A stretch of 64,000 nt of DNA, from contig JAAZMR010000023.1 of assembly GCA_012798695.1 (NCBI GenBank), positions 30,749-94,748 on the forward strand, written 5' to 3'. This DNA comes from Bacillota bacterium (lineage in GTDB: Bacteria; Bacillota; Limnochordia; DTU087). Below, one piece after another: positions 41,675 to 60,125 of the stretch. Each line of letters starts with the position of its first letter. Within the stretch, counting starts at the first letter, position 1. Made by a program: the position numbers and the translations under genes. The notes below the pieces were generated by a model, which saw only the letters and a list, made by a program, of their open reading frames with translations, made no database searches and had not been told where the DNA came from.

Positions 41675-41923
41675 TCATGATTCCGTGGTTTGAGCCAATG
41701 CTAGGTTGAAAGGTTTTTGGGGGGTAATTGTGGAAATGGCGTGCTTATAGATGAGGTCACTTTTTCCGTCACTTTCACTTTCGAGGAGTAGCGTAAAATT
41801 ATCAAAAGCTCTAACCAACCCGCGTAACTGCACCCCATTGACTAAATAGATGATTACTGGGATGTGTCCTCTGCGGATTTGGTTGAGATAGACATCCTGC
41901 AAGATCATTGCTGTCTTTGCCAT
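41675..41923 (-). CDS. hfq: RNA chaperone Hfq
   Basis: [43 protein letters not shown]...[19 protein letters not shown] before ATG at 41923. Confidence 0.97.
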
Positions 41924-41975
41924 GATGCTCCTCCTATCCTCGCCGGTCAATTCATATTGGTTGCTGCCTTTTGAT

Positions 41976-53767: not shown

Positions 53768-55357
53768 CTAGTTACCTATGAAGCCGATGATCAGGGCCAA
53801 TACGGCAGCAATTGTTGCAATATTGGCTGCACCTTTGAGACTCTTGTTTTCTTTCTCGGCGTGCTTACGGTAGCTATCAAACTCATCCCGTAACTCTTGT
53901 AACTGGCGCTCCATACGCTTTTCTCTCATTAAGGAGGCGCTCAACTGCGCAGACGCTTCTGTCACAACTTTCTCATCCATGGCAGCGAGTTTGTTTTCTG
54001 TTACGGCCACACGGTCCTGCAATGTAAGAACAACCCCTTGCAGATCACTAACATATCCCTTCAAGTCTGCCAAATCCTTGCTATCGGCCGCAGCACCTTG
54101 CTGCAAAATACCGGTCCGCTTGTCCAAAGCCGCAATCCTATCACTGATATTAATCAGGTCAGTCTGAACTGCCTCCAAGCTCTTGACCAAATCTTGACGC
54201 AGTCCGCTTACATCTTTCATCAGTTGACCATCGGCTGCTGCCAAGACTTCTGCTTGTTTGACGAGCTGTCCCTGCAACACCTGTATATCTTCAGAAATAG
54301 TCTCTGTTTCCTGAGTGCGGGTTTCTACCTCTGCTCCTAATGCCAGCTGCAACTGTGCAAGATCCGATTCTAGGCCATCCATTTGGACTGCTAACTCTTC
54401 GTCACGCTTGGTGCTAGCATTCTGCCAGGAAACAAGGGTATCCTCCACTGTATTTAGCTGCTGAACGGCATTGGCTAAGTCAATTTCAACCCGGTTAATC
54501 TCAGCCGCCAGTTCGGCATCTTTCGTTTCGAGTTCTGTCTGTAACAAGCTCAAAGCAGCTTCCCTTTCCGCGAAACGACTCTGCACTTTTACTCCTAGTG
54601 CCTCTTCCAATGCTGTCAGCGAATCCCCATGCACCGCCAATCGACGGCTGTGCTCTTTTAGCTTCTCTGTATTATCTTCCACCGCAGCCTCTGTATTGGC
54701 CAAGGAAGTGGTGGCCGCTTCCAGTGTGGTCCCTTGGGCAGCCAGTTCCTCTTCCATCCTCCGCAACTGGACACTCTGTTGATCCACTTGTTCCGTCAAG
54801 ACCACATCCGTTGCTTCTAGTCTCGTCGTAGTATCATCCAGTTCTTGTTTGACAGCCGCGATCTCGGCTAAAATCGCGCTGGCCTGCTCCTGCTGAGCGT
54901 AACGTATCGCTGCATCCTCTTGTTCCATGGTATCGATTACCCGTGTAATTGTATCATCCATCACCTGAACACGTTTTTGAGTATCTGCTACGGTAGAGCT
55001 CAAATTTTCTTTTTCATTATACCAGCGCACCAATTCATCGCGAAATTCCGTAGAGAGCTTCCGCAAGAGCTCTAGGTCATCCTGGGTTACTCCCAACTGA
55101 CCCTTTTCTATTTCTAGAAGCATCTTTCCAACTACTGATGCCAATGTATACCGATCTACAGGCTTTTGACCTTGAAATGTACCGTCTTCATAAACAGCTA
55201 AGTAACCCTCTTGGACAAGTTTCTTCACACCCTGATATGCCCAATGGCTCTCGGGAACGTCACTAATCTGTACCTCGGCAGCAAGAACCCCCGAACTCGC
55301 TAGCATTAAAAGCAGAATCACCGCTGCCGCTATCCTACTGAGTAATTTGGACTCCAT
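53768..55357 (-). CDS. SLH-domain / long coiled-coil / C-terminal TM protein (Omp-alpha-like envelope tether candidate)
   Basis: Signal peptide, one SLH domain (ISDVPESHWAYQGVKKLVQEGYLAVYEDGTFQGQKPVDRYTLASVVGKML), about 380 aa of coiled coil, C-terminal ANIATIAAVLALIIGFIGN TM. Confidence 0.85.
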   Translation of the reverse strand: MESKLLSRIAAAVILLLMLASSGVLAAEVQISDVPESHWAYQGVKKLVQEGYLAVYEDGTFQGQKPVDRYTLASVVGKMLLEIEKGQLGVTQDDLELLRKLSTEFRDELVRWYNEKENLSSTVADTQKRVQVMDDTITRVIDTMEQEDAAIRYAQQEQASAILAEIAAVKQELDDTTTRLEATDVVLTEQVDQQSVQLRRMEEELAAQGTTLEAATTSLANTEAAVEDNTEKLKEHSRRLAVHGDSLTALEEALGVKVQSRFAEREAALSLLQTELETKDAELAAEINRVEIDLANAVQQLNTVEDTLVSWQNASTKRDEELAVQMDGLESDLAQLQLALGAEVETRTQETETISEDIQVLQGQLVKQAEVLAAADGQLMKDVSGLRQDLVKSLEAVQTDLINISDRIAALDKRTGILQQGAAADSKDLADLKGYVSDLQGVVLTLQDRVAVTENKLAAMDEKVVTEASAQLSASLMREKRMERQLQELRDEFDSYRKHAEKENKSLKGAANIATIAAVLALIIGFIGN

Positions 55358-55422
55358 CTCTTATCCAGCCCCCTGTCAATTCTTTCTGATCGGTTGTGTA
55401 TGCCCTACCGGCAAGTAACTGT

Positions 55423-57462
55423 TCATTTGCTTACAGTAACCGGTAAGCCCGCAGCTCCCAATTCCACCACCTGGCCACCACTAGTCGTCAGACGGGCTGA
55501 GTGCAGCTGAATTACCCCACTGCCTTCATCGACAGCCAGGAAGCGGATAGCACACAGGTTACCGGTGAGTCGACGTGTTCCCACTTCTGGCAGCTGGGTG
55601 ATCTTAAGCCTGATCATGCCTTGTAGTGGTTCCAATTCCACTTCCATGGGAATTCTCTGTCCGGTCGTTGCTGAAATCGATGCCAGCACCTGGCCTGGCT
55701 CTATCCCCAGCTTCCCACCGGTTACCCGCAACAAGTTCACAGGGTACTGCAGCAAAAACTCAGCTTCCTGGATATTTCTTAAGTTATAGCCCTTGACCGC
55801 CACTTTGTAGGGTGAGCCTAAGGTAATTGCTGCCTTGGGTTCCTCCGCCGCCAGTCGCACTAGCTGCGGCAGTTGCGGTATACTGATGAAACCATTCAGC
55901 ACCTGCGTATCGGTCACCCCTGACTCCACCTTGACTGAATATGGCAGATTGTCGCTAGCCACATCTGTGGGGGTAATAAACCACTGCAGCAGGCGCTTTT
56001 CCCCTGGAGCTAGGTCACCACTCAGCTTTATTCGGGATTCTCCCGGGGCTAGTCGTAGTCCTATGGGGGCTTCCCACTGAGCTTGTACCCACTTTGCTTC
56101 CATCTCACCGACATTAGTAATAGCAGCCCTGACAGCAAACGGTACTGGCTGTAGGCTCCCATCTTCAATCAACAGCCGCGGCGGGCCTGAGAGCTCAACC
56201 TCCAGACGGGCTGGGTGCAATATTTGAACTTGACGCCGCACTTGGTTGGGTTCGCTATTAGCCGCTTCTACGCGAACCTGATAGTTAAGTGTCCCCCTAA
56301 CTCGCTCTTTCACCTCTACCTGCCAGGCGATTTGCACTGATTGACCTACATCGAGATTCCCTAGTTGCCCGATAGCCTGTTGGCCAGGAGCCAAGATGAG
56401 CCCTTCAGGCAGCTGGATTGAGGCTTTTACGTCCCTAGCCTCGCCTTCCCCGCTGTTTTCCACATAGGCTACAACTGGGAACCGGGTACGCCCATCAGGT
56501 GATTCGGTGACTATGGCGGGAGATGTTACCCCCAAAGAGATCTTGCCCGGGGCGATGGTAATACCACCCAGGCCATAGTAGGTTACCCAAGTGACACTTT
56601 CTCCCGCAGGAAGCGGGACAGGATCCCAAAACATGGCAATGGCTGAGTCCAGCTCAAACTCACCCTTGCGCAAAAAAATCCGATCAATCTCGAAATCGAA
56701 GTCCCAAATACTCTCTGCCAGTACACCCCAATTGGTAAAATATACCCGATCCGGTGTTGTCACGCCTGAGCCCCTCAAAGTTCCCTGAGACATGACCTCG
56801 GGCTCAGCCAGCGAATCAAAGGCTTGCCAAAAATCTGGTATTTCAGCTTTTGTAAATAGAGCATCTGTTGTAACTGCCTGTTCCTTTACTCGAAATGGAG
56901 CACCGTCATTGGCACCGAGCATCGTATCGAGCATTAGCCGCATGCCTACTGAATGAGGAGCTGTATCCTGGTTGGTCAATCGATAAGCAATGCGGGCGGT
57001 ATCTTTGAGCCCGGTGGTACTGCTGCGGGTAAAGCTCAGCATCTGCTCTACTTCGACAAAGCCCAGCTGATATACGGTGCGAATTGCGTTTCCTTCGACG
57101 ATAGCTGGCCCAGAGACTAGTCTGCCAAACGGTCCCTGACGACCCGCTGATGTTTGGGTACGACCGCCAAATACGTAGTTATTGCCATCCACCTGGATGG
57201 TCGTATACGAAGTCCACGGGTCAGCCATTCCATAGACAAGTGGTTTGTTCTCATCACCGCTTCTATCTGGATCACCACCGGTTGTATTGATCGAAAAACG
57301 ACCGGTGTTTTCTTTACCTCCATTGACGATAATGGAAATATATTCATTGGCAGCGATTACGTTGCTGCCGGCTGTGCCTCCAATGGTGGCTAGGGCGTTC
57401 CCTGCACAAAAACTCATCGCCATGGCCACAAGCAGGCTAATTATTAGCCAACGCCGCATCAA
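55423..57462 (-). CDS. Secreted multidomain beta-sandwich protein with C-terminal cohesin-like domain
   Basis: Signal peptide; CARDB/DUF11-like repeats (ENSGEGEARDVKASIQLPEGLILAPG; TNVGEMEAKWVQAQWEAPIGLRLAPG); cohesin-like VKGYNLRNIQEAEFLLQYPVNLLRVTGGKLGIEPGQVLAS...AIRFLAVDEGSGVIQL. Confidence 0.7.
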   Translation of the reverse strand: MMRRWLIISLLVAMAMSFCAGNALATIGGTAGSNVIAANEYISIIVNGGKENTGRFSINTTGGDPDRSGDENKPLVYGMADPWTSYTTIQVDGNNYVFGGRTQTSAGRQGPFGRLVSGPAIVEGNAIRTVYQLGFVEVEQMLSFTRSSTTGLKDTARIAYRLTNQDTAPHSVGMRLMLDTMLGANDGAPFRVKEQAVTTDALFTKAEIPDFWQAFDSLAEPEVMSQGTLRGSGVTTPDRVYFTNWGVLAESIWDFDFEIDRIFLRKGEFELDSAIAMFWDPVPLPAGESVTWVTYYGLGGITIAPGKISLGVTSPAIVTESPDGRTRFPVVAYVENSGEGEARDVKASIQLPEGLILAPGQQAIGQLGNLDVGQSVQIAWQVEVKERVRGTLNYQVRVEAANSEPNQVRRQVQILHPARLEVELSGPPRLLIEDGSLQPVPFAVRAAITNVGEMEAKWVQAQWEAPIGLRLAPGESRIKLSGDLAPGEKRLLQWFITPTDVASDNLPYSVKVESGVTDTQVLNGFISIPQLPQLVRLAAEEPKAAITLGSPYKVAVKGYNLRNIQEAEFLLQYPVNLLRVTGGKLGIEPGQVLASISATTGQRIPMEVELEPLQGMIRLKITQLPEVGTRRLTGNLCAIRFLAVDEGSGVIQLHSARLTTSGGQVVELGAAGLPVTVSK

Positions 57463-57545
57463 TTACCAGCCCCCTACTTACAAAGCTGCATACTTAACCG
57501 ACTATCCATGAAGCCCGCCTCTTCTTGTTCGGTTCAGCTCCCGAT

Positions 57546-58484
57546 TCATTCGTCTTTGACATACCGAATCCCGTCATACTCAATTCTAACCCTAAACTCA
57601 GGTGGGCCGCCGAACACGATCGTTACCGAAAGGACGTAGTCTTCGAGCAACGGTTCCATCTTCCATCCATGTTCGATCGTTAGACTGGCAACCTGATCCA
57701 AGGTGTCTAGACCCGATGACTCGCGGATCACAATCCGGTTAGCCTTTGTTGCACCTTTAGGAACATAGGCATCGAGCTTCACAGTACCAGCTAGACCTTC
57801 ATTGATCGCGTTTTTCGGGTATTGGACCCTACCTCCACCTGCAACTATACTGCCGGCAGCCGGCAGTGGCGGTAACGGTGGCGGTGATGGCTCCACTTCT
57901 TCTAGCAGATCTGGATCTACCGAAGGGCCAGCCGCCGGCTCACCACCTGCTGCATCTGGAGAACCGCCTCCGGATACCACAACATCCTGGCCTTGCTCAC
58001 TGGTAAGCAAACGATCATTATCACTGCCTGAGTCAGCAAGATTCTTTTCCGTATCATCGGCGGGCTCAAGTACCTGTTCCTGCGGTTCCGGTGCGGGTGC
58101 CGCCTTTTCTTCGACAGTGGCCGGAGTTTGTGATTCAATCGGGGTTGAGATCTCTTTTGGTACTGGCTGTTCCACCTGAGGCTCGGGCTTGACTTCTGCC
58201 TCAACTACTTGCTTCTCGGGTTGAGGTACTGGCGTCTCTGTGGCCGGCTTCTTGGTTTCCTCCCTGCGCACCCCGTCAGCGGGTTGTCGGCTCAATTGCG
58301 CTCTTGCAGACGGCTGATCGTCTATAGGTATGATGGTAATTATCCCACCATTACCCCCGAACAGCATGCCTGGGCCCGTAGCTAACTGCCACTCTGGATA
58401 GAGAAAAATCAGCAAGGCATGGAGGATAAGAGAAATCAGAACAAAGGCCCCTAAAGACCTCTCGGATTCATCAGTAACGTACAT
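57546..58484 (-). CDS. Energy transducer TonB-like protein
   Basis: N-terminal TM containing SLILH (SxxxH), Pro/Glu-rich spacer, C-terminal TonB domain QYPKNAINEGLAGTVKLDAYVPKGATKANRIVIRESSGLDTLDQVA; strong RBS GGGGGGAGGTGG before ATG at 58484. Confidence 0.85.
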   Translation of the reverse strand: MYVTDESERSLGAFVLISLILHALLIFLYPEWQLATGPGMLFGGNGGIITIIPIDDQPSARAQLSRQPADGVRREETKKPATETPVPQPEKQVVEAEVKPEPQVEQPVPKEISTPIESQTPATVEEKAAPAPEPQEQVLEPADDTEKNLADSGSDNDRLLTSEQGQDVVVSGGGSPDAAGGEPAAGPSVDPDLLEEVEPSPPPLPPLPAAGSIVAGGGRVQYPKNAINEGLAGTVKLDAYVPKGATKANRIVIRESSGLDTLDQVASLTIEHGWKMEPLLEDYVLSVTIVFGGPPEFRVRIEYDGIRYVKDE

Positions 58485-58532
58485 TGTGGCACCACCTCCC
58501 CCCAAGGTTGTCCATATGACACCTATAGGTGT

Positions 58533-58943
58533 TTACTTATCCCGGGGGCGAACCGCCAAACCAAATCGATATCCCCCTACCTGCCGTATATCATCCATAG
58601 CCTGTACTACATAGTCATAACGTGTATTTTTGTCTGCCTTAATCACAATAAATAGGTCCGGTCTTTGCTTTAGTGATTTGCCGATCTCTGCCTTTAGTGT
58701 TGCAGAGCTCACCTGCCGATCACCAAGAAATGTCCGACCATCGGCCGCTATCGAAATAGTCACCTGGCTGGGAGACTGCCTGTCTGAAGTCGCTGCCTTA
58801 GGTAGTTCCAGATTCAGTCCGGCAGGTTGGGTCCGAAAAGTAGTAAAAAGCATAAAGAAAACGAGAATGAAGAAAATCACATCGATTAGAGGCACAATCT
58901 GGACATTTGGCTTCTTGCGGGTCGGACGCTGGACCAACATCAA
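58533..58943 (-). CDS. ExbD/TolR family biopolymer transport protein
   Basis: NVQIVPLIDVIFFILVFFMLFTTF with the TM Asp; periplasmic ExbD domain. Confidence 0.93.
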   Translation of the reverse strand: MMLVQRPTRKKPNVQIVPLIDVIFFILVFFMLFTTFRTQPAGLNLELPKAATSDRQSPSQVTISIAADGRTFLGDRQVSSATLKAEIGKSLKQRPDLFIVIKADKNTRYDYVVQAMDDIRQVGGYRFGLAVRPRDK

Positions 58944-59554
58944 ATGTCACCCCTTGCTTCCAGAATCGCCAACAGCTCAGAAGAGCGTTTATTGATATCG
59001 ACCACTTGGCGATCAATCAAGCTTGTAAGATACGAATAGACCAGCATGCCAGGGATGGCGATAACCAATCCGACTGCTGTAGTAATCAAGGCTTCAGCAA
59101 TCCCCACACTCACGGCTAGTGGTTCTTCTAGGCCGCCGACAGCCGCTATCACCTGAAAACTCTTGATAATACCCGTGACGGTACCCAATAAGCCCAGCAG
59201 CGGGGCAATGGTCACCATTACATCCAACGTGCCCAGTCGCCGCTCCATGCGAAACACTTCTTCATGAGCGACTTCTTCGAGCCGTTCTCGAATATGCTCT
59301 TTGTCTTTATCATAATGGGCTATTCCAGCGGCCAACACTGCCGCGACCGGCCCCCTGGTCTTCTTTGCTATCTGCATTGCCTCCAAGATCTTGCCCTGCT
59401 GCAGTGCTAGTTTAATATCATCCATCAAGTCTTCTGTATCCACCCGGCAACGCAGCAAGTAGAACAGTCTTTCCAGCGAAACAGCCAACATCAACACTGA
59501 GCATAGCAACAAGGGGATCATGACCGGGCCACCCCGAATGATCATATCCAGCAT
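58940..59554 (-). CDS. MotA/TolQ/ExbB proton channel family protein
   Basis: GGPVMIPLLLCSVLMLAVSLERLFYL, LGTLDVMVTIAPLLGLLGTVTGIIKSFQVIA, GIAEALITTAVGLVIAIPGMLVYSYL; ATGA overlap with exbD. Confidence 0.95.
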   Translation of the reverse strand: MLDMIIRGGPVMIPLLLCSVLMLAVSLERLFYLLRCRVDTEDLMDDIKLALQQGKILEAMQIAKKTRGPVAAVLAAGIAHYDKDKEHIRERLEEVAHEEVFRMERRLGTLDVMVTIAPLLGLLGTVTGIIKSFQVIAAVGGLEEPLAVSVGIAEALITTAVGLVIAIPGMLVYSYLTSLIDRQVVDINKRSSELLAILEARGDI

Positions 59555-59824: not shown

Positions 59825-60064
59825 ATGGATAGACAATCTAGGCAAATTCACGAGCAAGCCATGGGCAAACTGAAACGGGACCTAGCACAAGAAATGGGTT
59901 TATGGGAGCTAGTTCAGGAGGGGGGATGGGGGGCTCTATCAGCCAAAGACTGTGGGCGCATCGGTGGTAGGATGGCCAGCCAGCTCGGTCCGGGTCTCAT
60001 GCGAAAAATCGCGGCTCTAGGGGAGTCAGAATGGCTCAAGGGCGAGACTACCACGAATGAATAG
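59825..60064 (+). CDS. Alpha/beta-type small acid-soluble spore protein-like (divergent)
   Basis: KLKRDLAQEMGLWELVQEGGWGALSAKDCGRIGGRM aligns with the SASP pattern KxKxExAxELGL...LTSRxxGxxGGxM. Confidence 0.78.
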   Translation: MDRQSRQIHEQAMGKLKRDLAQEMGLWELVQEGGWGALSAKDCGRIGGRMASQLGPGLMRKIAALGESEWLKGETTTNE

Positions 60065-60125
60065 CTGGATAACCAAAAGAGGTGGTGAAACCTACTCCGG
60101 GCCTCACCACCTCCAAATCTGGAAA

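Follow-up and report, generated by a model that had tools for sequence, protein, structure and literature searches.

A receptor-free ExbB-ExbD-TonB cluster with a secreted cohesin protein and an SLH anchor: a possible Tol-Pal-like force system of diderm Firmicutes

What does a TonB-type force transducer pull on when no TonB-dependent receptor is found in the genome that encodes it? The question is raised by a stretch of 64,000 nucleotides from a Bacillota bacterium (Limnochordia, DTU087; assembly GCA_012798695.1, contig JAAZMR010000023.1, positions 30,749 to 94,748 of the forward strand), here called the window, to which the unlabelled coordinates below refer. Five contiguous genes on its - strand (53768-59554) run in the order exbB, exbD, tonB, a gene for a secreted beta protein that we call BETA, and a gene for an SLH protein that is a putative anchor. 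The cluster adds a new variant to the force machines of the Ton/Tol family. By analogy with Tol-Pal, we give a probability of about 0.5 to its working as a Tol-Pal-like force system, built on SLH, that attaches outer membrane and wall to each other in the diderm Firmicutes outside Negativicutes. The features on which this argument draws are as follows.

58940-59554, - strand: exbB/tolQ-type motor subunit, 204 aa (Pfam MotA_ExbB, 115 bits)
58533-58940, - strand: exbD/tolR-type motor subunit, start ATG at 58940 (Pfam ExbD, 106 bits)
57546-58484, - strand: tonB-type force transducer with an N-terminal transmembrane (TM) segment, a proline-rich linker and TonB_C
58419-58433, - strand: SxxxH motif (SLILH) in the TonB TM segment, Ser25 and His29 of the long open reading frame (ORF)
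57618-57827, - strand: TonB_C domain, residues 227-296 (PF03544, 29.5 bits; cut-off 24.6)
55423-57459, - strand: BETA, secreted, four domains, central partner of the cluster
56515-57366, - strand: BETA N-terminal beta-supersandwich (galactose-mutarotase-like), residues 33-316
56218-56514, - strand: BETA Ig-like domain 1 (NEW3/CARDB type; PF10633 in 39 of 42 homologues)
55843-56217, - strand: BETA Ig-like domain 2 (strands in the predicted model)
55426-55842, - strand: BETA cohesin domain (PF00963 in 30 of 42 homologues)
53768-55357, - strand: SLH/coiled-coil/C-terminal TM protein, putative wall-binding anchor
55151-55267, - strand: SLH repeat of the anchor, residues 31-69 (PF00395, 34.9 bits)
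53774-53836, - strand: C-terminal hydrophobic helix of the anchor, about residues 508-528

An original prediction, made from the letters of the window alone, had named these five contiguous genes, and they are as it claimed, with Pfam matches for the motor genes, TonB_C and SLH. The SxxxH motif that it placed in the TonB TM segment is there, and the last gene has the layout it described (signal peptide, one SLH repeat, coiled coil and C-terminal hydrophobic segment). Small details needed correction. The genes exbB and exbD do overlap, but at a TGATG junction, with one A common to the stop and the ATG, and not at ATGA; BETA lies where it was placed, but ATG 57459 is a more likely start than 57462. 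This ATG and the likely start of tonB (ATG 58484) each stand behind a G-rich ribosome-binding site.

The bacterial genomes searched gave 80 loci. Named relatives are Limnochordia, Halanaerobium, Orenia, Halanaerobacter, Halonatronum, Frackibacter, Hydrogenispora and UBP13. Sixty-nine loci, from Limnochordia, Halanaerobia, Hydrogenispora and UBP13, are complete, and the five-gene order is intact in all 69; the other 11 are truncated by a contig end just where the absent gene would lie. Because the order is the same in every uncut locus examined, the clustering is far beyond chance. The genes are also closely packed, with median intergenic gaps in the 69 loci of -1, 20, 17 and 16.5 bp. Of 73 Limnochordia genomes, 70 have BETA (41-80% identity over the main matches), and the three without a match hold the beginning of the cluster, truncated at a contig end; in Limnochordia loci where the profile missed tonB, the slot usually holds an ORF of like layout. 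Nearly all members of Limnochordia, Halanaerobia and their kin carry the fixed five-gene set, and the gene order whose conservation the original prediction proposed to check is kept throughout Limnochordia and beyond. The flanking genes, read by eye, change with lineage: spoIIA-sigF in Limnochordia, gyrA/gyrB in Halanaerobium, his genes in Orenia, plsX/fab in Hydrogenispora and pyruvate dehydrogenase genes in UBP13. Since the flanks outside Limnochordia are quite different, it is selection, and not neighbourhood, that keeps the five genes together.

The cluster had been assigned to a diderm host, and the source genome (2.68 Mb assembly, 100% complete, 5% contamination) bears this out with a full set of outer-membrane assembly genes. 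It has BamA, and nearby, on contig C99, LptD, LptA-like proteins, an LptFG-like permease, LpxC, LpxD, three Skp-like proteins, TamB and the L/P-ring proteins FlgH and FlgI; all but BamA were read from the sequence, not by hidden Markov model. Neither of the two outcomes named beforehand as fatal to the original prediction, a genome devoid of outer-membrane assembly genes or a neighbourhood not shared with relatives, thus came about, and its interpretation is largely supported. A search for OmpM, likewise proposed, found an OmpM-like SLH/coiled-coil protein (open frame of 1087 aa; contig C54 near 41799-41930, locus L156) with SLH, a long coiled coil and barrel-like sequence. Across 399 Bacillota genomes, with full-length BETA called at E < 1e-120, BETA is present in 88 and Omp85 in 102: 87 genomes have both, 1 has BETA only, 15 have Omp85 only and 296 have neither (Fisher p 8e-71, which is overstated because genomes and not independent events are counted, although the pattern still covers many families). 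The sole BETA-only genome is a 91% complete assembly, and 14 of the 15 Omp85-only genomes belong to three families (f44, f74 and f85) that are probably Negativicutes. BETA thus tracks Omp85 across Bacillota, which links the cluster to the outer membrane.

The cluster TonB is an orphan, separate from receptors. When TonB-dependent receptors were sought in the source genome, no Plug domain was found, and this TonB is the only one. Plug occurs in 9 of 73 Limnochordia genomes and 10 of 29 others (19 of 102), with receptors matched down to E 1e-34. A second TonB is present in 17 of the 19 Plug genomes versus 1 of the 83 without Plug (p 3e-16), and the three exceptions are all at contig ends: in genomes G003 and G004 the second tonB, next to the receptor, is truncated, and the extra TonB of G057 is at a contig start. 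At the receptor loci, receptor, tonB, exbB and exbD stand in varying order, often adjoining an ABC importer (probably for B12 or iron), and no receptor gene lies within or adjoining the five-gene cluster. This makes a strong case that the cluster does not import nutrients. Neither the lack of receptors for this TonB nor the tol-pal-like gene order described below was part of the original prediction. In 2009 the Halothermothrix genome paper had already described ExbB, ExbD and TonB occurring together, noted that no receptor accompanied them and proposed that they do something else (PMC2626281). In a survey of force transducers from 2025, Negativicutes were the only diderm Firmicutes with Ton (PMC12204202).

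Receptor-linked Ton loci were seen in both Limnochordia and Halanaerobia (L162, L163, L164, L166 and L168-L173), several of them with an ABC importer and a periplasmic binding protein.

The motor genes belong to the families used by Ton. Like a Ton system, the cluster has ExbB, ExbD, TonB_C and SxxxH, and coupling to the proton-motive force would be expected; unlike one, it has no receptor, as is true of most host genomes, and the genomes that do have receptors carry a second exbB-exbD-tonB. SxxxH is present in 70 of 73 TonBs, its S25 and H29 being the sole invariant columns across 21 aligned TonBs of the class, so that the residues predicted to couple the transducer to the proton-motive force are kept in the cluster TonB. 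Against NCBIfam models, the ExbB-type subunit scores higher with tolQ (99.5 bits) than with exbB (78.4), and the ExbD-type subunit higher with tolR (75.4) than with exbD (58.3), all below equivalog cut-offs (221 for tolQ, 127.3 for tolR). In a tree of motors the receptor-linked ones form one separate clade; the deep branches are weakly supported, and we therefore do not use it to judge which of TolQ and ExbB the cluster motors are closer to. Most Limnochordia genomes have just two MotA/ExbB-family proteins, a MotA of about 270-300 aa and the cluster ExbB of about 205-215 aa.

The BETA of the window alone gives no Pfam match above cut-off, and its domains were assigned through its homologues and predicted structure. 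The C-terminus, described in the original prediction as cohesin-like, is a true cohesin: PF00963 matches homologues at up to 5.7e-13, and the family profile matches solved cellulosomal cohesins at 2.7e-14 (profile positions 536-647). The Ig-like match to PF10633 is to NPCBM_assoc. AlphaFold2 models the full protein as all-beta (pLDDT 87.8, pTM 0.73), for which Foldseek returns only generic Ig matches (TM score about 0.2). The N-domain modelled alone reaches pTM 0.87 and finds GH94/GH116 enzymes, mutarotases and the YidC periplasmic domain (TM score 0.40-0.58). With 53 invariant residues among the 42 homologues, this N-domain is the conserved core of BETA, whereas the cohesin is its least conserved domain, with zero. 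The signal peptide has no conserved cysteine that would make a lipobox.

Very large proteins (1200-2600 aa) of Omp85-negative Bacillota (G276, G314, G112, G250, G279 and G425) also contain the supersandwich N-domain together with some of the Ig region.

Nearly all homologues of the anchor keep the signal peptide, one SLH, the coiled coil and the hydrophobic C-terminal helix, and the C-terminal 17-mer is hydrophobic in 64 of 71. Two known kinds of tether offer comparisons for this putative outer-membrane tether. OmpM/SlpA proteins share the signal peptide, the one N-terminal SLH and the coiled coil, and the por_somb (SomB/OmpM-type) model picks up the N-terminal SLH region of the anchor at a score under its cut-off; the anchor differs from them in ending in a hydrophobic helix without a beta-barrel, and the same genome has the separate OmpM-like protein. 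Thermotoga Omp-alpha (OmpA1), compared by architecture only, has the same SLH, coiled coil and C-terminal TM helix and sits in the outer membrane (PMC9388160), but it has no known tie to a Ton-type motor, whereas the anchor belongs to a fixed operon.

Anchors of about 1450-1480 aa occur at L090:11951-16291 and L063:9861-14300, versus 211-260 aa in Halanaerobia and UBP13, an extreme range of rod lengths. At one locus (L134:7073-7762) a second, short SLH/coiled-coil/TM gene lies directly upstream of exbB, so that anchor genes flank the cluster on both sides.

The set as a whole has a parallel in Tol-Pal. The E. coli order is tolQ-tolR-tolA-tolB-pal, and the cluster corresponds to it slot for slot, with two motor genes, a transducer that has an SxxxH TM segment as TolA does, a secreted beta protein and a wall-binding, membrane-anchored protein. 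The parts themselves differ. The C-terminal domain of the transducer matches TonB_C, the motor scores under the TolQ/TolR cut-offs, BETA is supersandwich-Ig-Ig-cohesin and not the six-bladed propeller of TolB, and in place of the OmpA domain and lipid of Pal the anchor has SLH and a TM helix. No Pal was found in the source genome, where the sole OmpA-family protein is the MotB beside MotA; a few other genomes have additional OmpA-family matches. With the TolB propeller and the Pal domain absent, the cluster is not Tol-Pal by descent. It also occurs in Terrabacteria, where Tol-Pal is reported absent, Tol-Pal (and Pal) having been found only in Gracilicutes (PMC12204202; PMC10628300). A substitute for Tol-Pal with a TonB-like protein has been proposed before, namely PorE of Bacteroidetes, a proposed TolB-Pal-CpoB fusion (PMC12204202), but PorE is one multi-domain lipoprotein of Gracilicutes and has no domains in common with the cluster.

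A fixed five-gene set, usually without a receptor, suggests that the cluster probably serves Tol-Pal-like upkeep of the outer membrane. We envision the five gene products as one trans-envelope machine, in which the ExbB-ExbD motor would draw on the proton gradient to shift the TonB-type protein by its SxxxH TM helix. The C-terminal domain of that protein would span the periplasm and pull on BETA, on the SLH anchor or on both, in place of a nutrient receptor. The anchor's SLH would grip peptidoglycan or its secondary polymer while its C-terminal helix sits in a membrane, and BETA, by analogy with TolQRA-TolB-Pal, might hold or release the anchor. Pulling could then relocate anchors to sites such as the septum, where outer membrane and wall draw in jointly. 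The interaction partners, the anchor's membrane and the septal role in this scheme are what we infer.

Several points weigh against the scheme. BETA lacks a beta-propeller and the anchor lacks an OmpA domain, which makes the Tol-Pal parallel one of analogy. The presumed Negativicutes have Omp85 but no BETA, which makes BETA dispensable for an outer membrane as such, and with the OmpM-like protein present the cluster is not the sole candidate tether. Anchor length varies from 211 to 1447 aa, which is odd for a rod of set span, and by the usual rules a C-terminal helix like the anchor's would remain in the inner membrane. The support comes from genes and models, which speak to interaction, localisation and phenotype indirectly. 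We nevertheless see a moderate case that the cluster does Tol-Pal's job. More tentatively, it may be a second kind of Tol-Pal, proton-driven, that moves SLH anchors and replaces Tol-Pal throughout diderm Firmicutes except Negativicutes, and that either evolved independently or is older, coming from a diderm ancestor of the Firmicutes.

The alternative that survives best places the anchor between inner membrane and wall, its TM helix beside ExbBD-TonB and its SLH gripping the wall as MotB does with its wall-binding part, with the machine driving something else through BETA, such as a wall or surface polysaccharide. A hydrophobic helix of 17-20 residues at the very C-terminus normally stays behind in the inner membrane. 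The N-domain of BETA, moreover, resembles carbohydrate-active proteins; supersandwich domains often bind sugars, and the invariant residues of this one suggest a ligand site. We nonetheless consider this arrangement unlikely: by itself it leaves the tight outer-membrane link unexplained, and Omp-alpha, with the same layout, sits in the outer membrane (PMC9388160). The membrane that holds the anchor helix, inner or outer, decides between this arrangement and the Tol-Pal-like reading.

Ordinary TonB-driven nutrient import, through receptors too divergent for the Plug model, is strongly disfavoured. TonB_C, ExbB and ExbD are all present, and import was one option raised in the Halothermothrix genome paper (PMC2626281). 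However, true receptors are easily found and, at nearly all the loci read, come with an ExbB, an ExbD and a TonB to themselves, and the cluster is kept in 83 genomes without a Plug match and has no receptor gene in or beside it. Divergent receptors were set aside after the Plug search of the 102 genomes and a reading of the receptor loci.

A sporulation system tied to spoIIA-sigF, one that might draw the outer membrane around the forespore, is more improbable still. The original prediction was right that spoIIAA-AB-sigF lies in the same window, and in 40 Limnochordia loci the series spoIIAA-AB-sigF, GNAT, exbB-exbD-tonB-BETA-SLH recurs, with few exceptions, as far as the contig extends. The space between GNAT and exbB holds a gene for a small acid-soluble spore protein (SASP) on the other strand (59825-60064, +; 79 aa; alpha/beta-type SASP PF00269, 28.6 bits against a cut-off of 22, the scanned copy being one residue short), and a SleB-like hydrolase gene lies downstream of the cluster in Halanaerobia. 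A functional spore link does not follow, and a sporulation operon was set aside, because this opposite-strand gene and a terminator-like hairpin part the cluster from sigF and the other lineages have other gene contexts, many loci outside Limnochordia having no sigF nearby:

60078-60114, - strand: terminator-like hairpin 3' of the GNAT gene, between the cluster and spoIIA-sigF, with a 15-pair stem and a T-rich tail

The hairpin (read 60114-60078) is one of 8 matches, versus 7.3 in shuffles, but has the longest stem by far. The cluster, moreover, follows Omp85 and not the wider phylum, being absent from 296 of 297 Omp85-negative Bacillota genomes. Co-location with sigF is old within Limnochordia but not needed, and the sporulation link is incidental.

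Weakest of all is a surface display or cellulosome-like scaffold, in which the cohesin would bind dockerin enzymes and the SLH protein hold it at the surface with the Ton genes as bystanders: a genuine cohesin does adjoin an SLH protein, but the order is fixed with the motor in every uncut locus, the cohesin is the least conserved domain of BETA and the supersandwich its conserved core, and OmpM-type SLH proteins in diderms face the periplasm.

The original prediction knew of no described system with this gene set, and we found none in the open-licence papers searched for TonB with SLH, Tol-Pal or Halanaerobia; earlier mention in subscription papers is possible. The 2016 paper on diderm Firmicutes notes SLH proteins in the outer-membrane locus of Halanaerobiales but names neither TonB nor ExbB in its text (PMC5007114), while the 2025 survey expects further outer-membrane-stabilising systems still to be revealed (PMC12204202). 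The orphan TonB of the 2009 Halothermothrix paper now gains two fixed partners, BETA and the SLH anchor. The means by which an outer membrane is energised and constricted in diderm Terrabacteria, which do without Tol-Pal, belong to the larger question of how Firmicutes lost theirs, and cultured isolates of Halanaerobium, Orenia or the Limnochorda class now allow it to be tested.

Two neighbouring genes recur beside the cluster. In all 13 Halanaerobia loci, a gene for a cell-wall hydrolase (SleB-like, Hydrolase_2) lies 3' of the SLH gene, for example at L143:12663-13244 and L127:12586-13206; it is likely a sixth gene of the system there, and its presence fits a role at wall-remodelling sites. 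In several families, an ABC ATPase gene (PstB profile match) lies between the GNAT gene and exbB, as at L159:843-1610 and in L037, L058, L060, L061, L063 and L071.

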